Positions 2,540 to 54,847 of a stretch of 64,000 nt of DNA are shown one piece after another. Positions within the stretch are counted from its first letter, which is position 1. Each line of letters starts with the position of its first letter. The stretch is from an uncultured Lachnospiraceae bacterium (GTDB taxonomy: Bacteria > Bacillota > Clostridia > Lachnospirales > Lachnospiraceae). The DNA is taken from positions 62,001 through 126,000 of the forward strand of contig CACZFF010000006.1 in the NCBI GenBank assembly GCA_902780385.1. The letters run 5' to 3'. A model generated the notes under the pieces. That model worked only from the letters and a program-made list of their open reading frames with translations. It ran no database searches and was not told the DNA's origin. The position numbers were made by a program, and so were the translations under genes.

Positions 2540-5332
2540 CTATCGAACCCGCAGGGCTGCTGTCAGCAGGAAACGGGTTGAGCCGGAGCTGCTCCGTGCA
2601 TTGAGGCTGCCGCCCATGAGGGCAGCGGCTTCCTGCGCCGCATAGAGTACCGGTCTTCCCGCGGATGCGGCATCAGCCGGATCTTCCGCCTCAAACATGG
2701 CCTGCATCCCTGTCTCCGGAATCCTTTTTCCGTCGTCATCAATCCTGAAGTACAGATTTACCAGACCTCCGGAAGGGCGGTCAGCACGGCAGTGGACACT
2801 GATGATTCCGCCTGTCCTCGCACGGCCTACCGCATTCTCAATGATCTCGCACAGAGCCTGTCTGAGAAGCGAAGCATACCCGTATACATTTGAGGGAAAT
2901 CTGCTGTCCAGATACAGACGGAGTGTGATCTCCCTGTCCGAGCAGATGCTGTCCTCATAGACCATAATATCCCGTATAAAGGACTCCGGGGAGAAAGCCT
3001 CCTCCCGCAGAACAGTCTTTCCGGGGGAGGCACTTGCCGCAGGGGCAGCGGGAGTATCAAGCTGCAGCTGTTCCTCTTCCCCGTCATCGGCCGGCCCCAT
3101 AGAGGAAAACACCTTCAGGGACCGGCCCCGGGTCATCCAGTCCCCTTGGCGGATGACTGTTTCCGAAGGCTGCATTACTGCCGAAGACTGCATTTCTTTC
3201 GAAGGCTGTATTGATGCCGAAGGATGCATTTCTTTCGAAGGCTGTATTGAGATCGGAGAATGCAATGATGCCGATGGCTTCATTGCTGCAGAAGGCTGCA
3301 TTGTTGCCGCAGACTTCATTGATCCCGCGGATGATCCCGCCGCGGACGACTGCAGCGTCGCCGCAGGCAGGATCGCAGGTCCCATAGCCTCCGTGATTTT
3401 CACACGGTCTGTATACAGGCCGTCTGTCTGTTCTTTTTGACGTTCTTCGTTCTGTTCCCTGAGCTGCCTGAGCTGCTCTTCGAGAAGAAGACGCCGGGAT
3501 CTTTCCCTCTGCAGCTGCTGTTCCAGCTGACGGCTGCGCTGCTGAGCCTCGCGCAGCTGCTCTTCGAGAAGGCTGCGGGCACTGCAGGCTTCTTTGACCT
3601 GCCTCTGGGCGCGGGCTTCGTGATTGCGGATCCTTCGGGCAGCATCTTCTTCAACCCTGTCGCGCTCCGCCGCGATCTGTTTCTGCGCCGTCCTGGCTTC
3701 TTCCAGCTGACGGCTCATCAGGGCGCCGCGCTTCTTTTCCTCCGACAGACTGTATTCAATACGCGTCATCTCCTCGGCATGCTTTTTCTCAGCTTCCTTT
3801 AAGGAGATGCTGAGCTCGCCCAGCTTGCCGGCCGCATTTTCCTTAGCCTTTTTGAGGTCTGCCCGGAGCTGTTCCTGACCGGCACGTCCCATCTTCATAG
3901 CACGGTCGACCCGGGTTTCCATTTCCTTCTGCGCAGCTTCCCGGTCATAATAGAACAGATACAGCCGCATGGTCCCGTCTTTTTCCCTGACGCGCCGGAC
4001 CATCAGTTCCACCCGGACAGCCTTTTCGTCCGCCTGGTCAGGTCTTTTGACACGGAAGATCCCGCATGAAACCGCCTTGCCGGTCGCTGTCTTGTCCGGA
4101 TTGAAAATATAGGATGTCAGCAGACGGTCGCGGGTGATACTCGTGAGTTCCAGCCCGTAGAAAGGGTCCTCCAGGATGTTCTTCATATACACACTGTTGG
4201 ACACACCGAACATGGAAGGAATATTTTTACTGGTAAAAAACACTCTCGGACCGCCGTTGGAAATCTTTACGGCCTGTGCTTTTGCCGCAGCCGCCTTCTC
4301 CGTGAAGTTGTTTTCCCTGCGGCGTCCGCGGTAGATCTTGACATCGCCGTCCTCCTGCACAGCTTGTTCGGGGGCGGTTTTCCCTCTGCTGTCAGTGCTG
4401 TCAGTTCTTTCAGTGCTTTCACCGCCGGAAGCTGCAGCATTCTCCCCTGCGGGATCCTTTTCCTCAGCTTTTTTCAGCATAGTCCCCGGAGGATACTCAA
4501 TCCCGCAGATTGCCTCCGGAATCTGACGCAGGATCTCAGTGGCTGAATCCAGCCGCTCCTGGAGCCGGTCTGCGGTGATCCGGAAGCCGGTCGTCTCCTG
4601 AAAGACACAGTAATAGACGGTGCCGCCGTCTGCCTGATAGGCGGGCGCCCCCTTCATCCGGTAATAAAAGCTGTTGCCGTCCCGGCGGTAAAAACGCAGA
4701 TTTGCAGTGATGCTGCCTCCGTTTTTGCGCGCCTCCGCAATTTCCTCCTGAATTCTGTCCCGGTCTTCCTCCGAGGCCATGAAAAAGGGATTCTGTTCCA
4801 TTGCGCGCGCAAATTCATCCTGCTTGTAACGAAGCCGGTGGGCAAAAAACTCATTGTAATAAATCGCCTGTTCCCGCCGTCCGTCCAGACAGGCGAGGAT
4901 CATCACGCCGCACGGAAGATTGTCAATAAATCCGCGCAGCTGTTCAGAACTGTCACGCTCGGATTTTTTGGAAAAATGCAGAAATGTGATCTCAAGCTGT
5001 CTGCTGCGCCGGCAGATTGCCATGGAACACCGCAGATAGAGCGGCCTCTCCTCTTCCCTTGATACGAGATTAATCTCGTAGGCCACTGTCATGATATTAT
5101 CCGCGCTCGGGGAACTCTTGATGGAGATCAGGTCAACATATCGTGGCTCTGTCTCCTGCTTGATCTGCTTGCGCAGAAACTTCAGCACCGCACCTTCCGA
5201 AAGGAAATGGTGCATGTTCTCCGGTGTGATCCATACCAGATCTCCCGCCAGCATTTTCTGACAGGCATCGGCATCTCTTTGATCAAATAATCTATATAAA
5301 AACTCTTTTCCGAAATCAATAGGTGTTTTCAT
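2540..5332 (-). CDS. Large multi-domain sensor: SnoaL-like, PAS, coiled coil and HATPase-like C terminus
   Basis: From the ATG at 5332 the protein has 930 residues. Residues ~1-120 look like a SnoaL/NTF2-type fold. Residues ~135-250 form a PAS-like domain, and another PAS-like region follows at ~370-480. A long Glu/Lys/Gln/Arg-rich coiled coil spans ~480-640, then nine hexapeptide repeats (672-725). A GHKL ATPase-like end follows, with an N-box-like EIIENAV near 835 and a degenerate G1 box, DDDGKRIP. No phosphoacceptor histidine helix is evident and the G2 box is weak, so kinase activity is uncertain. No response regulator lies nearby. The frame extends to 5437, but the ATG at 5332 begins the conserved-looking domain; neither start has a good ribosome binding site. 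No membrane segments are visible, suggesting a soluble sensor. Confidence 0.75.
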   Translation of the reverse strand: MKTPIDFGKEFLYRLFDQRDADACQKMLAGDLVWITPENMHHFLSEGAVLKFLRKQIKQETEPRYVDLISIKSSPSADNIMTVAYEINLVSREEERPLYLRCSMAICRRSRQLEITFLHFSKKSERDSSEQLRGFIDNLPCGVMILACLDGRREQAIYYNEFFAHRLRYKQDEFARAMEQNPFFMASEEDRDRIQEEIAEARKNGGSITANLRFYRRDGNSFYYRMKGAPAYQADGGTVYYCVFQETTGFRITADRLQERLDSATEILRQIPEAICGIEYPPGTMLKKAEEKDPAGENAAASGGESTERTDSTDSRGKTAPEQAVQEDGDVKIYRGRRRENNFTEKAAAAKAQAVKISNGGPRVFFTSKNIPSMFGVSNSVYMKNILEDPFYGLELTSITRDRLLTSYIFNPDKTATGKAVSCGIFRVKRPDQADEKAVRVELMVRRVREKDGTMRLYLFYYDREAAQKEMETRVDRAMKMGRAGQEQLRADLKKAKENAAGKLGELSISLKEAEKKHAEEMTRIEYSLSEEKKRGALMSRQLEEARTAQKQIAAERDRVEEDAARRIRNHEARAQRQVKEACSARSLLEEQLREAQQRSRQLEQQLQRERSRRLLLEEQLRQLREQNEERQKEQTDGLYTDRVKITEAMGPAILPAATLQSSAAGSSAGSMKSAATMQPSAAMKPSASLHSPISIQPSKEMHPSASIQPSKEMQSSAVMQPSETVIRQGDWMTRGRSLKVFSSMGPADDGEEEQLQLDTPAAPAASASPGKTVLREEAFSPESFIRDIMVYEDSICSDREITLRLYLDSRFPSNVYGYASLLRQALCEIIENAVGRARTGGIISVHCRADRPSGGLVNLYFRIDDDGKRIPETGMQAMFEAEDPADAASAGRPVLYAAQEAAALMGGSLNARSSSGSTRFLLTAALRVR
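3158..3319 (-). repeat. Nine tandem 18-bp units encoding hexapeptide repeats
   Basis: Inside the PAS/HATPase gene, nine in-frame 18-bp units encode hexapeptides of the form (M/I)-(Q/K/H)-P-S-x-x, for example MQPSET, IQPSKE and MHPSAS. The units have diverged, so this is an old expansion. It forms a probably disordered linker between the coiled coil and the ATPase-like domain. Confidence 0.9.
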
Positions 5333-5577: not shown

Positions 5578-5731
5578 CAAATCAATGTGACAGAAAATCC
5601 ACTCATCTTTGAATTATCCGGCGTTATTTTTAGTGTTTATTGCGCTAAAAAGCACTTTTTCTCCCATTATTGCATATACTTGTGGTTATGACCTCGTGTT
5701 CATAAACATGTCTGAGTACGTAACATTATAT

Positions 5732-5878
5732 GATGTAAAGGTCAAAAGGTATCCAATGGCTCTGAGTCTCGTCAAGCTACACAAACAGCCGAAGGGCCTT
5801 GGCGAGCGGCCGGTACTTGGCCGCTGTTTTTTAGCGGCCTTAGTACCGCTGCCAGCGAGGGTAGAGCGAGAGCGTGCC
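5732..5878. repeat. Dispersed modular element R1, copy 1
   Basis: It shares three blocks with 54065-54182. The 22 bases at 5732-5753 match 54161-54182 exactly, inverted. The 35 bases at 5844-5878 match 54126-54160 exactly, inverted. The 21 bases at 5767-5787 match 54099-54119 with one change, in the same orientation. The order and relative orientation of the blocks differ between copies. A plus-strand terminator (5805-5832) is present only in this copy. No transposase or long ORF is associated. It ends 26 bases before the start of the XRE gene at 5904. Confidence 0.85.
5805..5832 (+). terminator. Plus-strand terminator inside R1 copy 1
   Basis: GCGGCC (5806-5811), a seven-base loop and GGCCGC (5819-5824), followed by TG and six T residues. 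No coding sequence precedes it on the plus strand for over 4 kb, so it may end a short untranslated transcript starting within or just before R1. Confidence 0.7.
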
Positions 5879-5903
5879 TATATTATCTATATGGAGATTA
5901 CAT

Positions 5904-12116: not shown

Positions 12117-12157
12117 CTGTTCTCATCTATTAAAAAGATTGCCGGCTGTTTTGCAAT

Positions 12158-13474
12158 TTATGCCCTGGGCTTACCGCATCCGGAGCAGAACTTGCCGGTG
12201 TTGTCCGCCTGACCGCAGGAAGGGCAGGTCCAGGTACCGCTGGAGTCAGCGGGTTTTGCCGTGCCGCAGCCGGGGCAGAACTTGCCTTTGTTGCCGGTCT
12301 GGCCGCAGGTAGGGCAGGTCCACTCTTCAGGCTCCGCGGGTTTGGCTGTGCCGCAGCCGGGGCAGAACTTGCCGGTGTTGCCTTCCTGGCCGCAGGCAGG
12401 GCATTTCCAGCCGGCTGCCGCCGCGCCGGGTGCCTGCATCTGAGGTGCCGCCTGCTGCTGCGCTGCTGCCTGCTGCATGAGCTGTCCGACGTTGACGCCT
12501 CCGGCCTGCTGTGCCATTCCCATGCCGGCAAAGCCCATCATGGCGCCGTTGGGATTCTTGGCTGCGTCCTTCATGGCCTGTGCATTCGCCTGGACAGAAA
12601 TACCGGCTGCGATGGCTGCATTGCCGCCTGCCGCAAGACCCAGCTGGAGATTCTTGATCGCCTGCTCGTCCTCTTCGGAAGCCTTGACGCTGCTGACGCC
12701 GCACGTAACGATCTCTATGCCGTAAACCTGTCCCCATGTGGAGGAGAGTTCGGTGTTGAGAGCCTCAGAGAGTTCTCTGGTGTGGCCGGGCAGTGAGCTG
12801 TAGCGGATGCCCATATCGGAGATTCTGGCGAAGGCAGGCTGCAGGGCTGTCAGGAGCTCGGAGCGGAGCTGATCATCGATCCTGTCACGGGTGTAATCCC
12901 TGTCCACATTGCCGCAGATATTCTTGTAGAACAGAATCGGGTCAGTCATCTTGTAGGTATATTCGCCGAAGCACCTGACGGATATATCCAGGTCCAGGCC
13001 GATGTTTTTATCGACGACACGGAAAGGGACCGGGCTGGCAGTGCCGTATTTATTTCCGATGATATTCTTGGTATTGAAATAATAGACCCTCTGGTCCTTG
13101 GCTGTGACGCCGCCGTAGCTGACACGCGCCGCGAACTTTTTGAAGCTCTCTTTGATACCCTGTCCCAGATTACCGGAAAAGATACTGGGTTCTGAGGATG
13201 TGTCATAGGTGTAGGCGCCGGGCTCCGCGCAGATATCCACGATCGCGCCCTGGTCGACAATGATCATACACTGGCCTTCGTTGACAACGATCGTAGATCC
13301 ATTGGTGATCACATTCTCGCTTCCGCCTTTGTTGAGGAGGCCTGACTTGCCGGTGTGATGCTCTCCTTTGCGGACAAGAACATTCGTCGGCATTTCAGAG
13401 CAGTAAAAATATTCCTTCCACTGATCTCCAAGAACAGTACTGAGTGAAGCGCCTGCTGCTAAAATAAGTCCCAT
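12158..13474 (-). CDS. SPFH/band-7 domain protein with three C-terminal zinc ribbons
   Basis: The 438-residue protein has an SPFH-type domain over roughly residues 20-280 (motifs include GAIVDICAEPGAYTYD and GIRYSSLPGHTRELSE). A Gln/Ala-rich stretch follows at ~310-345, then three tandem zinc ribbons from ~350 to the end. Each ribbon is CPxCGQ, a five-residue turn, KFC and a second CG pair. SPFH proteins oligomerise on membranes as scaffolds; ribbon-tailed versions are known in Firmicutes without firm function. AGGGAGGT lies five bases before the ATG. The downstream zinc-ribbon and CotH genes lie on the same strand. The ribbons are close copies at DNA level too, about 90 bases apart, showing internal duplication. 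Confidence 0.85.
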   Translation of the reverse strand: MGLILAAGASLSTVLGDQWKEYFYCSEMPTNVLVRKGEHHTGKSGLLNKGGSENVITNGSTIVVNEGQCMIIVDQGAIVDICAEPGAYTYDTSSEPSIFSGNLGQGIKESFKKFAARVSYGGVTAKDQRVYYFNTKNIIGNKYGTASPVPFRVVDKNIGLDLDISVRCFGEYTYKMTDPILFYKNICGNVDRDYTRDRIDDQLRSELLTALQPAFARISDMGIRYSSLPGHTRELSEALNTELSSTWGQVYGIEIVTCGVSSVKASEEDEQAIKNLQLGLAAGGNAAIAAGISVQANAQAMKDAAKNPNGAMMGFAGMGMAQQAGGVNVGQLMQQAAAQQQAAPQMQAPGAAAAGWKCPACGQEGNTGKFCPGCGTAKPAEPEEWTCPTCGQTGNKGKFCPGCGTAKPADSSGTWTCPSCGQADNTGKFCSGCGKPRA

Positions 13475-41747: not shown

Positions 41748-41762
41748 CATCTTTCATTTGAG

Positions 41763-41791
41763 AGAATAGCACCCTAAAAGGCGGATGTCAA
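41763..41791 (-). promoter_or_regulatory. Sigma-A promoter of grpE-dnaK-dnaJ
   Basis: On the minus strand the -35 TTGACA (41791-41786) and -10 TATTCT (41768-41763) are separated by 17 bases. The CIRCE operator begins about 15 bases downstream of the -10. Confidence 0.93.
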
Positions 41792-41823
41792 CAAAGATTT
41801 ATAAAGAAAATATGAAAAGAAAT

Positions 41824-43285: not shown

Positions 43286-43299
43286 TAAAACCTATTGAG

Positions 43300-43328
43300 A
43301 GAATAGCACCCTCTTCCCCGGATGTCAA
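43300..43328 (-). promoter_or_regulatory. Sigma-A promoter of hrcA
   Basis: On the minus strand TTGACA (43328-43323) and TATTCT (43305-43300) are 17 bases apart. Core hexamers, the GGGTGC before the -10 and the CTCTCAA after it are shared with the grpE promoter, suggesting duplication. Confidence 0.93.
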
Positions 43329-43439
43329 TAAAGGCTGAGGCCCTGGATTTGGATGGGTTTGAAACCCAGACAGAAGTATTTCCGCGTATTTCCGCGCACT
43401 ATGTATTGTGACAGTCTGTGCGATATACTCACATCATCA

Positions 43440-53038: not shown

Positions 53039-53803
53039 TCAACCCTCCGCGGCGTTCGCGATGTACATGATGGTCAGCATTGTGAAGATAAATGCCTGCA
53101 TCGCGCCGGTGAACCAGTCGAAGTAGACCGACAGGACTGCCGGAAGACCTACACTCAGGATCGGAATGTTGCTCAGGAAATCGCCGACCGCGCCGGGAAT
53201 CAGTCCCAGTAAGGCACCGGATGCGATGGCCAGAGCCGCATAGATCAGACCGTTGATGACGATACCTGACAGGATATTGCCGAAATGACGGCAAGCCATA
53301 CTGACAGGTGTCGCAAGCTCGGACAGCATATTGAAGGGCGTCATCACGGGAATCGGTTCCGTGAATCCCTTCAGATAGCCGAGGACGCCTCCGGCCTTGA
53401 TCTTGTTGGCCGTGATCATAGCAAATACCACGATTGCCCAGGCAGCTTCCGTCGACAGGTCCGCCGTCGGACTCCGGAAAATCGGGATCAGACTGATCAG
53501 GTTCGAAACAATACTGGTGGCGAAAATTGTGGAAACAAAGGGAATCAGGCTGTCAAACTTTGTGCCTCCCGTGTTGTTCCGCACCAGGTTGGTAGCCGCT
53601 TCCACGATCATTTCCGCGATTGCCTGCCGTTTTGAGATTTTCTCCACTTTTAAATTGCGCGTCAGGAAAATGCACAGTCCCGTGATGATAAGCATGACGA
53701 TCCAGCTTACCACGATTGTCTCCGTGATCAGGATATCTCCCAGAATCGGGATCCCGGTCGGGATTCTCGCGAATATCTTCGCACCGGAAATGTCAAATTC
53801 CAT
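53039..53803 (-). CDS. atpB: ATP synthase F0 subunit a
   Basis: The 254-residue integral membrane subunit forms the ion path next to the c ring. It has about six membrane helices. The essential stator arginine is probably in SMACRHFGNILSG, near residue 175, and the later helices contain LVPGxx-like segments such as LLGLIPGAVGDFLS. AGGAGG lies about 11 bases before the ATG. It is separated from atpI by 453 bases containing repeat R1 copy 2, an unusually long interruption. Confidence 0.95.
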   Translation of the reverse strand: MEFDISGAKIFARIPTGIPILGDILITETIVVSWIVMLIITGLCIFLTRNLKVEKISKRQAIAEMIVEAATNLVRNNTGGTKFDSLIPFVSTIFATSIVSNLISLIPIFRSPTADLSTEAAWAIVVFAMITANKIKAGGVLGYLKGFTEPIPVMTPFNMLSELATPVSMACRHFGNILSGIVINGLIYAALAIASGALLGLIPGAVGDFLSNIPILSVGLPAVLSVYFDWFTGAMQAFIFTMLTIMYIANAAEG

Positions 53804-54064
53804 TCAGAAATCTCACCTCCTCCTCTTCTTCTGCAGTAAATAATTGTTGTGTGCATCTTGTAACAGTTGCGTAACGTAAGGACTGTTTACGTTTTTATAT
53901 GGCAGCACAGGCAGCAGGAACTCTGATCCCCGCTTCACTTTACTGCCGCAGACCGCTGTTCCGGTTCCGGTTCCATCCCTGTGAAAGAAAACCCCCATCA
54001 TCTTTTTCACAGATCAGGCCTTGTGCCAGTGGTTCAGCGGAAAGCTTCTATAGATATTAGATAT

Positions 54065-54182
54065 GATGTTGAGGTCAAAAGGTGGTTAAGTGAACACCGT
54101 CTCGTCAAGCTGCACAAACGCCTTGGGCACGCTCTCGCTCTACCCTCGCTGGCAGCGGTAGATACCTTTTGACCTTTACATC
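54065..54182. repeat. Dispersed modular element R1, copy 2, inside the ATP synthase operon
   Basis: It is bounded by inverted ends: 54065-54083 and 54164-54182 match at 17 of 19 bases (GATGTNNAGGTCAAAAGG). The inner 35 bases (54126-54160) match 5844-5878 exactly in reverse orientation, and 54099-54119 match 5767-5787 with one change. It lies in the atpI-atpB gap. Size and ends resemble a MITE, but no target duplication was identified. Confidence 0.85.
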
Positions 54183-54183
54183 A

Positions 54184-54226
54184 TTAGATATTCAGAATAT
54201 TAGATATTCAGAAAATATTCAGATCA
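54184..54226. repeat. Short 16-bp tandem repeat beside R1 copy 2
   Basis: TTAGATATTCAGAATA (54184-54199) and its near-identical neighbour (54200-54215) are followed by a partial third unit. The array abuts the right end of R1. Confidence 0.85.
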
Positions 54227-54256
54227 ATCATTATCCGGAACGATCATTCAGACTGT

Positions 54257-54847
54257 TCAGCCGTTTTCATGCTCCCCAGCTGATTCCTGATCAGCTGTCC
54301 CCTCCGCAGGCGCTGCCTGCAAAGGTCTTTCAGCCGGCTCCTGCACAGATGCTTTCTCCGAAACTGATTCTTGTAAAAGGGCATCCTGTCCGGCTGCATC
54401 TCCCTCTGCTCCGGGCTGAGCCGGGGACGCGGCATTTTTACCTGTGACACCCATCTTTATCCCTCGCAGCTTGATCACAAAGCCCGGAATAAAAAGAGGA
54501 ATGATGCCTGCTGCGTAGTTGAAGCAGGGCGCCACGATCGCGATGATGATCCAGATCCCCCGCATCAGCATGCGGTTGCGGTAACTGACGCGCATCATGC
54601 GGAGCGCATCGTCCCGGTTGGTGACATTCACGACATTCTGGACCGTGACCGCCATGAGAAAAAAGTTGGCGACAGCGACAGCGCCGCCGACAAGAGCTCC
54701 CAGTACCACCCTGTAGTCAAACTTGACCGATGACTCAGGGAAAATCAGATAAAAAACCAAAAACAGCGCGATCAGGACCAGACAGCCGATGCCTGTTCCT
54801 GTCGCTACCGCGACTGTTTCTTTTTTAACTGCACTCTGTAATTTCAT
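54257..54847 (-). CDS. ATP synthase subunit I (AtpI-like)
   Basis: The 196-residue protein has four membrane segments at ~17-38, ~47-67, ~96-112 and ~113-130, then a Glu/Ala/Pro-rich cytoplasmic tail of about 55 residues. AtpI-type proteins assist c-ring assembly and stability. AGGA lies just upstream of the ATG. The gene follows the AtpZ-like gene by about 80 bases. The acidic tail is longer than in most AtpI proteins. Confidence 0.8.
   Translation of the reverse strand: MKLQSAVKKETVAVATGTGIGCLVLIALFLVFYLIFPESSVKFDYRVVLGALVGGAVAVANFFLMAVTVQNVVNVTNRDDALRMMRVSYRNRMLMRGIWIIIAIVAPCFNYAAGIIPLFIPGFVIKLRGIKMGVTGKNAASPAQPGAEGDAAGQDALLQESVSEKASVQEPAERPLQAAPAEGTADQESAGEHENG

Follow-up and report, generated by a model that had tools for sequence, protein, structure and literature searches.

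The closest described counterparts of the repeat studied here are the IS1182-related MITEs of Methanosarcina acetivorans, which, according to the available part of PMC3852290, are 160 and 169 bp long and have ISMac2 as their partner. A word search of the text available for a MITE review (PMC10969869) returned none of IS1182, Lachnospir- and Clostridi-, and a literature search of partial coverage found no published description of the Lachnospiraceae MITE clan presented below. The repeat occurs twice in the window, i.e., the whole stretch of 64,000 nucleotides that was analysed, from an uncultured Lachnospiraceae bacterium. We consider it very probable that it is a MITE moved in trans by an IS1182-like transposase, and that the apparent rearrangement between its copies arises from assembly joins.

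The preliminary description of the window had reported two copies that share exact blocks of 35 and 22 bases and a 21-base block with one mismatch. All three were recovered by comparing the window with itself: an exact block of 35 nt (5844-5878 vs. 54126-54160, inverted), an exact block that measures 24 nt instead of 22 (5730-5753 vs. 54161-54184, inverted) and a block of 21 nt with one mismatch (5766-5786 vs. 54099-54119, direct). Block order and orientation do differ between the copies as had been stated, and the similarity of the two is far beyond chance. Their features are the following:

5725..5731, no strand: probable left target-site duplication of copy 1, ATTATAT, read from the sequence and of AT-N3-AT shape
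5732..5878, plus strand: copy 1, running from the left inverted repeat through the left arm and the central hairpin into the right arm, without the right end
5779, plus strand: base found in copy 1 alone (A, as opposed to G in the other matched copies), 99 nt ahead of the junction at 5878
5878..5879, no strand: probable assembly join truncating copy 1, 99 nt past the private base at 5779
54056..54064, no strand: left target-site duplication of copy 2, ATTAGATAT, 9 bp exact
54065..54182, minus strand: copy 2 in reverse orientation, its right end at the low coordinate and its middle 90 nt missing
54160..54161, no strand: probable assembly join inside copy 2, which retains 98 nt on its low side and 24 on its high side
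54183..54191, no strand: right target-site duplication of copy 2, ATTAGATAT, exact, a perfect 9-bp pair with the left one

The left duplication of copy 1 is listed as probable because it is one-sided, its right counterpart being missing. Copy 1 (5730-5878) aligns with positions 1-149 of the 212 of the element at 97%, and its end at 5878 is no natural element end. The boundaries given earlier for copy 2 (54065-54182) are precisely those of the element as flanked by its target duplications. A helix-turn-helix gene lies 25 bp beyond the end of copy 1; copy 2 is situated, within window 53803-54257, between the genes for the ATP synthase A chain and the ATP synthase I chain.

The window contains several other repeats. 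At 3161-3322, overlapping 36-nt windows repeat at 18-nt steps in eight copies (64-83% to the reference), within a minus-strand reading frame in which PAS and histidine-kinase ATPase are matched. Three 87-nt direct repeats, 64-80% alike, are spaced 90 and 87 nt apart at 12156-12419. A perfect 20-nt inverted repeat that does not belong to the MITE has its arms 9 kb apart (4213-4232 and 13401-13420), and a 39-nt direct repeat that is 82% alike occurs at 41758-41796 and 43295-43333, 1.5 kb apart.

The two copies are part of a much larger set. Queried with copy 1, its own genome (G000; 3.3 Mb in 96 contigs) returns 65 BLAST matches up to E = 10, of which 13 have E ≤ 6e-39, the copy itself being counted. 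The end motif ATGATGTNNAGGTCAAAAGGT has 59 matches there at up to three mismatches, compared to zero for a reversed control motif. The idea of a dispersed, recently copied element is borne out, and the two copies are not the only ones in the genome. Across 61 genomes (its own, 36 of the same genus and 24 of the same order), an element match at E ≤ 0.001 is present in 10, all in this genus and several of them partial. A wider clan with ends GATRYNNRGGTCAAAAGG extends to named Lachnospiraceae, for example Muricomes intestini, with 158 ends in G066, and Blautia wexlerae, with 10 in G069. No match to the element was found in the plasmid and phage collections searched, and viral contigs yielded four stretches with the end motif and zero end pairs.

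When intact, the element measures 212 bp (L002:1504-1715), and a second form (L007-L009) has 19 additional bases in the left arm, reaching 230-231 bp. The element is a near-complete palindrome (-113 kcal/mol, z = -10, as good in 0 of 200 shuffles) bordered by terminal inverted repeats of about 20 bp, GATGTAAAGGTCAAAAGGT on the left and GATGTTGAGGTCAAAAGGT on the right. It carries no transposase gene, for which both forms are too short. Fifteen aligned copies, including the two in the window, follow one colinear plan when placed in element orientation. Exact target duplications of 7, 8 and 9 bp flank 38, 11 and 2 of 71 end pairs, respectively (51 in total), whereas a shuffle control (n = 100) gives means of 2.98, 0.15 and 0.03. 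These 71 pairs represent all loci then collected, from several species, with a few nested alternatives at one place in L101. In G009, which has at least 11 pairs, an exact 7- or 8-bp duplication accompanies all 11 that were fetched. The duplications are of the form AT-N3-5-AT, most of them starting and finishing with AT, which may belong to the target or to the element, as AT adjoins the ends in nearly all flanks. Terminal inverted repeats, target-site duplication, short length and many copies are all features of MITEs that the element shows; a further one, an autonomous element with the same ends, is found in relatives only (L301, L306, L307, L308 and L321).

The likely autonomous partner is an IS1182-like insertion sequence of about 1.85 kb with similar ends and duplications of 7-8 bp. 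No transposase had been noted near the copies, and a Pfam scan of the eight proteins around both of them agrees. The search for an encoded transposase with matching ends was successful in relatives. In L301 (G026, same genus), a 536-aa transposase with DUF772 and DDE_Tnp_1_6 domains is located between the ends GATGTTGAGGTCAAAA and GATGCTGGGGTCAAAAGG, the second of which occurs twice, with no exact duplication. Its residues 43-517 match the IS1182 model NF033551 at 1.7e-39 with 136 bits; as this is below the curated cut-off of 270, we name it IS1182-like and regard it as related to the family but divergent, not as formally belonging to it. Relatives of L301 occur in 16 of 299 family genomes drawn at about one per genus, with at most three matches per genome and several with stop codons. 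L307 (1863 bp, duplication ATGACAT) has the same ends at zero and one mismatch and a frame with one stop codon, and L306 (1848 bp, duplication ATCAATAT) has ends at two and three mismatches and an open frame. End pairs at up to two mismatches without a 7-bp duplication are present in L308, L319 and L321, while L311 combines variant ends with a 7-bp duplication; at the remaining transposase loci the ends are weaker, single or not recognisable. A PF01609 (DDE_Tnp_1) search of four host genomes gave 17 matches. These ends are absent at all four PF01609 loci of the own genome, in which no transposase of the L301 type was found at E ≤ 1e-30 (four of six first-look candidates scored; assembly 92% complete).

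The lack in the own genome of a match to this transposase and of such ends at its PF01609 loci counts against this partner, as does the lack of an exact duplication in L301, and mobilisation in trans is inferred: most likely, an IS1182-like DDE transposase acts on the MITE ends, and insertion would take place at AT-N3-5-AT sites with 7-9 bp being duplicated. The case named in the preliminary description, that all copies are fragments of a known insertion sequence, applies in spirit, in that the copies belong to an element that is non-autonomous and related to an IS1182-like insertion sequence. The IS256 family was also considered as partner and rejected, PF00872 being found in none of G000, G026 and G066, and once, in pieces, in G067. 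Long end pairs with a duplication, sought in the loci then collected as a sign of an autonomous partner, amounted to one of 425 bp in L169 and, at six mismatches, one of 4.7 kb in L105, the latter taken as chance. Among the 25 listed groups of recurring proteins adjoining the ends, no transposase was recognised in the first 150 residues inspected.

One possibility is that the element is retained because its transcript has a function, e.g., as a terminator, mRNA stabiliser or small RNA. This would fit the very stable hairpin (-113 kcal/mol) as well as the position of copy 2 between ATP synthase genes and of copy 1 25 bp before a helix-turn-helix gene. The target duplications oppose it, however, as does the absence of both insertions from relatives: copy 2 is missing from the aligned neighbourhoods in G010 and G026 (the two matched relatives aligned) and copy 1 from those in G013, G026 and G010, where the intergenic stretches have diverged so that the exact uncut target is not legible. 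In addition, Rfam recognises one tRNA only in the window at gathering score. We therefore regard an RNA function as unlikely. The 400-bp flanks of 42 family copies show one weak neighbour match (L005-L062) and zero shared insertions.

The differences between copies can be accounted for by the way in which short repeats are assembled. The default maximum k of IDBA-UD is 100, and a scaffolder trims the supposed overlap when joining contigs. In a de Bruijn assembly with k of about 100, contigs would end about k-1 bases into the repeat, and these contig ends would then be joined with trimming of the supposed overlap. Such scaffold joins have probably cost copy 2 its middle and copy 1 its right end. 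Of the 42 family copies, 31 (10 from G000 and 21 from G026) have one deletion of at least 8 nt at more than 85% identity and were used to examine the junctions. The other 11 were left out, as eight have no deletion, L111 has two, and L165 and L182 are too diverged. The length kept on the low-coordinate scaffold side is 90-105 nt in 25 of the 31 copies, compared to three on the high side. This applies to 8 of 9 copies in plus orientation, in which the left arm is kept, and to 17 of 22 in minus orientation, in which it is the right arm. As scaffold direction is arbitrary, a breakpoint fixed on the low-coordinate side in either orientation is probably not biological. The six exceptions are L011, L013, L030, L098, L130 and L151. 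In a third genome, G009, the low-side run exactly shared with another copy measures 95-99 nt in 7 of the 11 listed pairs (misfits: L330, L333, L334 and L338); in none of these 11 is the high-side run as long as 90 nt.

A second regularity concerns the distance between the junction and the last base by which a copy is distinguished from another. This distance is exactly 99 nt in five of ten G000 copies (L011, L012, L016, L023 and L024) and 69, 65, 48, 0 and 0 nt in the other five. In G026 it is exactly 99 nt in 7 of 21 copies (best of ±3 nt); the other 14 give 97 (three times), 98, 96, 94, 91, 102, 78, 72, 70, 61, 59 and 49 nt. Copy 2 of the window (L023) has its junction exactly 99 nt past the last base separating it from another compared copy. 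In copy 1 the same spacing separates the junction from the private base at 5779; the word with this base occurs only in L001, L031 and L194, all one place, and the longest run that copy 1 has in common with any compared copy is 69 nt. Ns are present at two junctions (NNN in L005 and 24 N in L329), and three G026 contigs start 97-98 nt inside the element. Ten one-ended copies from loci L001-L030 were examined, excluding L004 and L019/L028, which are at contig starts; the high-coordinate side is missing in nine of the ten and the low one in L017. Altogether, there is strong indirect evidence, weaker for copy 1, that the missing parts of both window copies are due to scaffold joins.

G026 corresponds to RUG375, with contigs named scaffold_N, and the available part of the RUG genomes paper (PMC5830445) reports assemblies by idba_ud and by MEGAHIT with k up to 87. 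Local assembly errors are suspected to be particularly prominent in IDBA-UD according to the portion of PMC7111523 at hand, which states that scaffold ends usually overlap perfectly by the largest k in IDBA-UD and by one base fewer in metaSPAdes; the 99 nt observed is hence near, not exactly at, this rule for IDBA-UD. The IDBA-UD default maximum k does not appear in the accessible text of PMC6795807.

The competing explanation for the missing parts, and the first choice before the low-side and 99-nt evidence led us to drop it, is that the deletions are real, i.e., that the palindrome is unstable and each copy, once inserted, had its centre removed by cruciform cleavage or by slippage during replication. 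In its favour, the hairpin centre lies within 30 of the 39 deletion intervals, compared to 17.7 expected for random placement inside the ends. Yet contigs that end about 98 nt into an element of 212 nt stop on either side of its centre, so centre-spanning deletions are expected from assembly too. The breakpoint fixed on the low-coordinate scaffold side irrespective of element orientation, the 99-nt distance rule in G000 and G026 and the Ns at two junctions all speak against real deletions, which we hold to be quite improbable. Short sizes do recur in G066, and this also speaks for real deletions: among 29 listed pairs, 23 measure 182-184 bp, four 69 bp and two 128 bp. These 69- and 128-bp forms look like real short copies in the wider clan; in G067, 5 of 5 pairs are 193 bp (counted by eye). 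The mostly uniform lengths in these two assemblies contrast with the pattern described above and favour the assembly explanation. Some diverged one-ended copies (L014, L015 and L021) may likewise be true remnants. Changes beyond a plain deletion are 43 extra nt in L081, a 23-nt insertion at the junction of L122, several gaps in L165 and a repeated right end in L333. We give very little credence to a variant in which at least some copies truly lose the palindrome centre post-insertion through hairpin processing coupled to IS1182-like transposition; if true, nearly every copy in the genome would carry its own private deletion through such processing.

Modular recombination that shuffles blocks among copies, as originally proposed from the differing block order and orientation of the two copies, is hardly credible, because local BLAST reduces each of ten one-ended copies, for the form that it matches better, to one main colinear segment, or two in order, the only extra match being a weak arm-to-arm one as the palindrome predicts, and aligned parts are at least 88% identical in 40 of 42 copies (in a global alignment, which is blind to reordering). 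Copy 2 is simply the other orientation without the middle: it comprises, in order, the left end, the right-arm block, the right-arm inverted counterpart of the 21-mer and the right end. The 21-base block in copy 2 belongs to the right arm of the palindrome and is not a left-arm module that has moved; its counterpart in the left arm is the 21-mer of copy 1. With scaffold joins as the preferred explanation, the apparent reordering would follow from the opposite orientation of the copies, the resemblance between the two arms of the palindrome, and the joins themselves. More generally, scaffold joins in metagenome-assembled genomes can mimic private deletions and "modular rearrangement" in successive copies of a short repeat. 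Two checks expose them: a breakpoint fixed on one scaffold side, and junctions at a constant distance past the last distinguishing base.

In conclusion, the repeat represents a MITE family that is new but of a known kind, its likely partner is IS1182-like, and the feature that made it look strange most probably stems from assembly. Compared to the IS1182 family, the partner transposase in L301 matches NF033551 and has the DUF772 and DDE_Tnp_1_6 domains, yet its 136 bits stay under the cut-off of 270. Like the MITEs of M. acetivorans, as far as these are covered in the available part of their description, the element is short and multi-copy, has inverted-repeat ends and probably has a partner of the IS1182 kind. 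The two differ in their target sites, with 4 bp or no target duplication for the M. acetivorans MITEs (by a column reading of that same part) against 7-9 bp of the form AT-N3-5-AT here, and in their host, which here belongs to the Lachnospiraceae.
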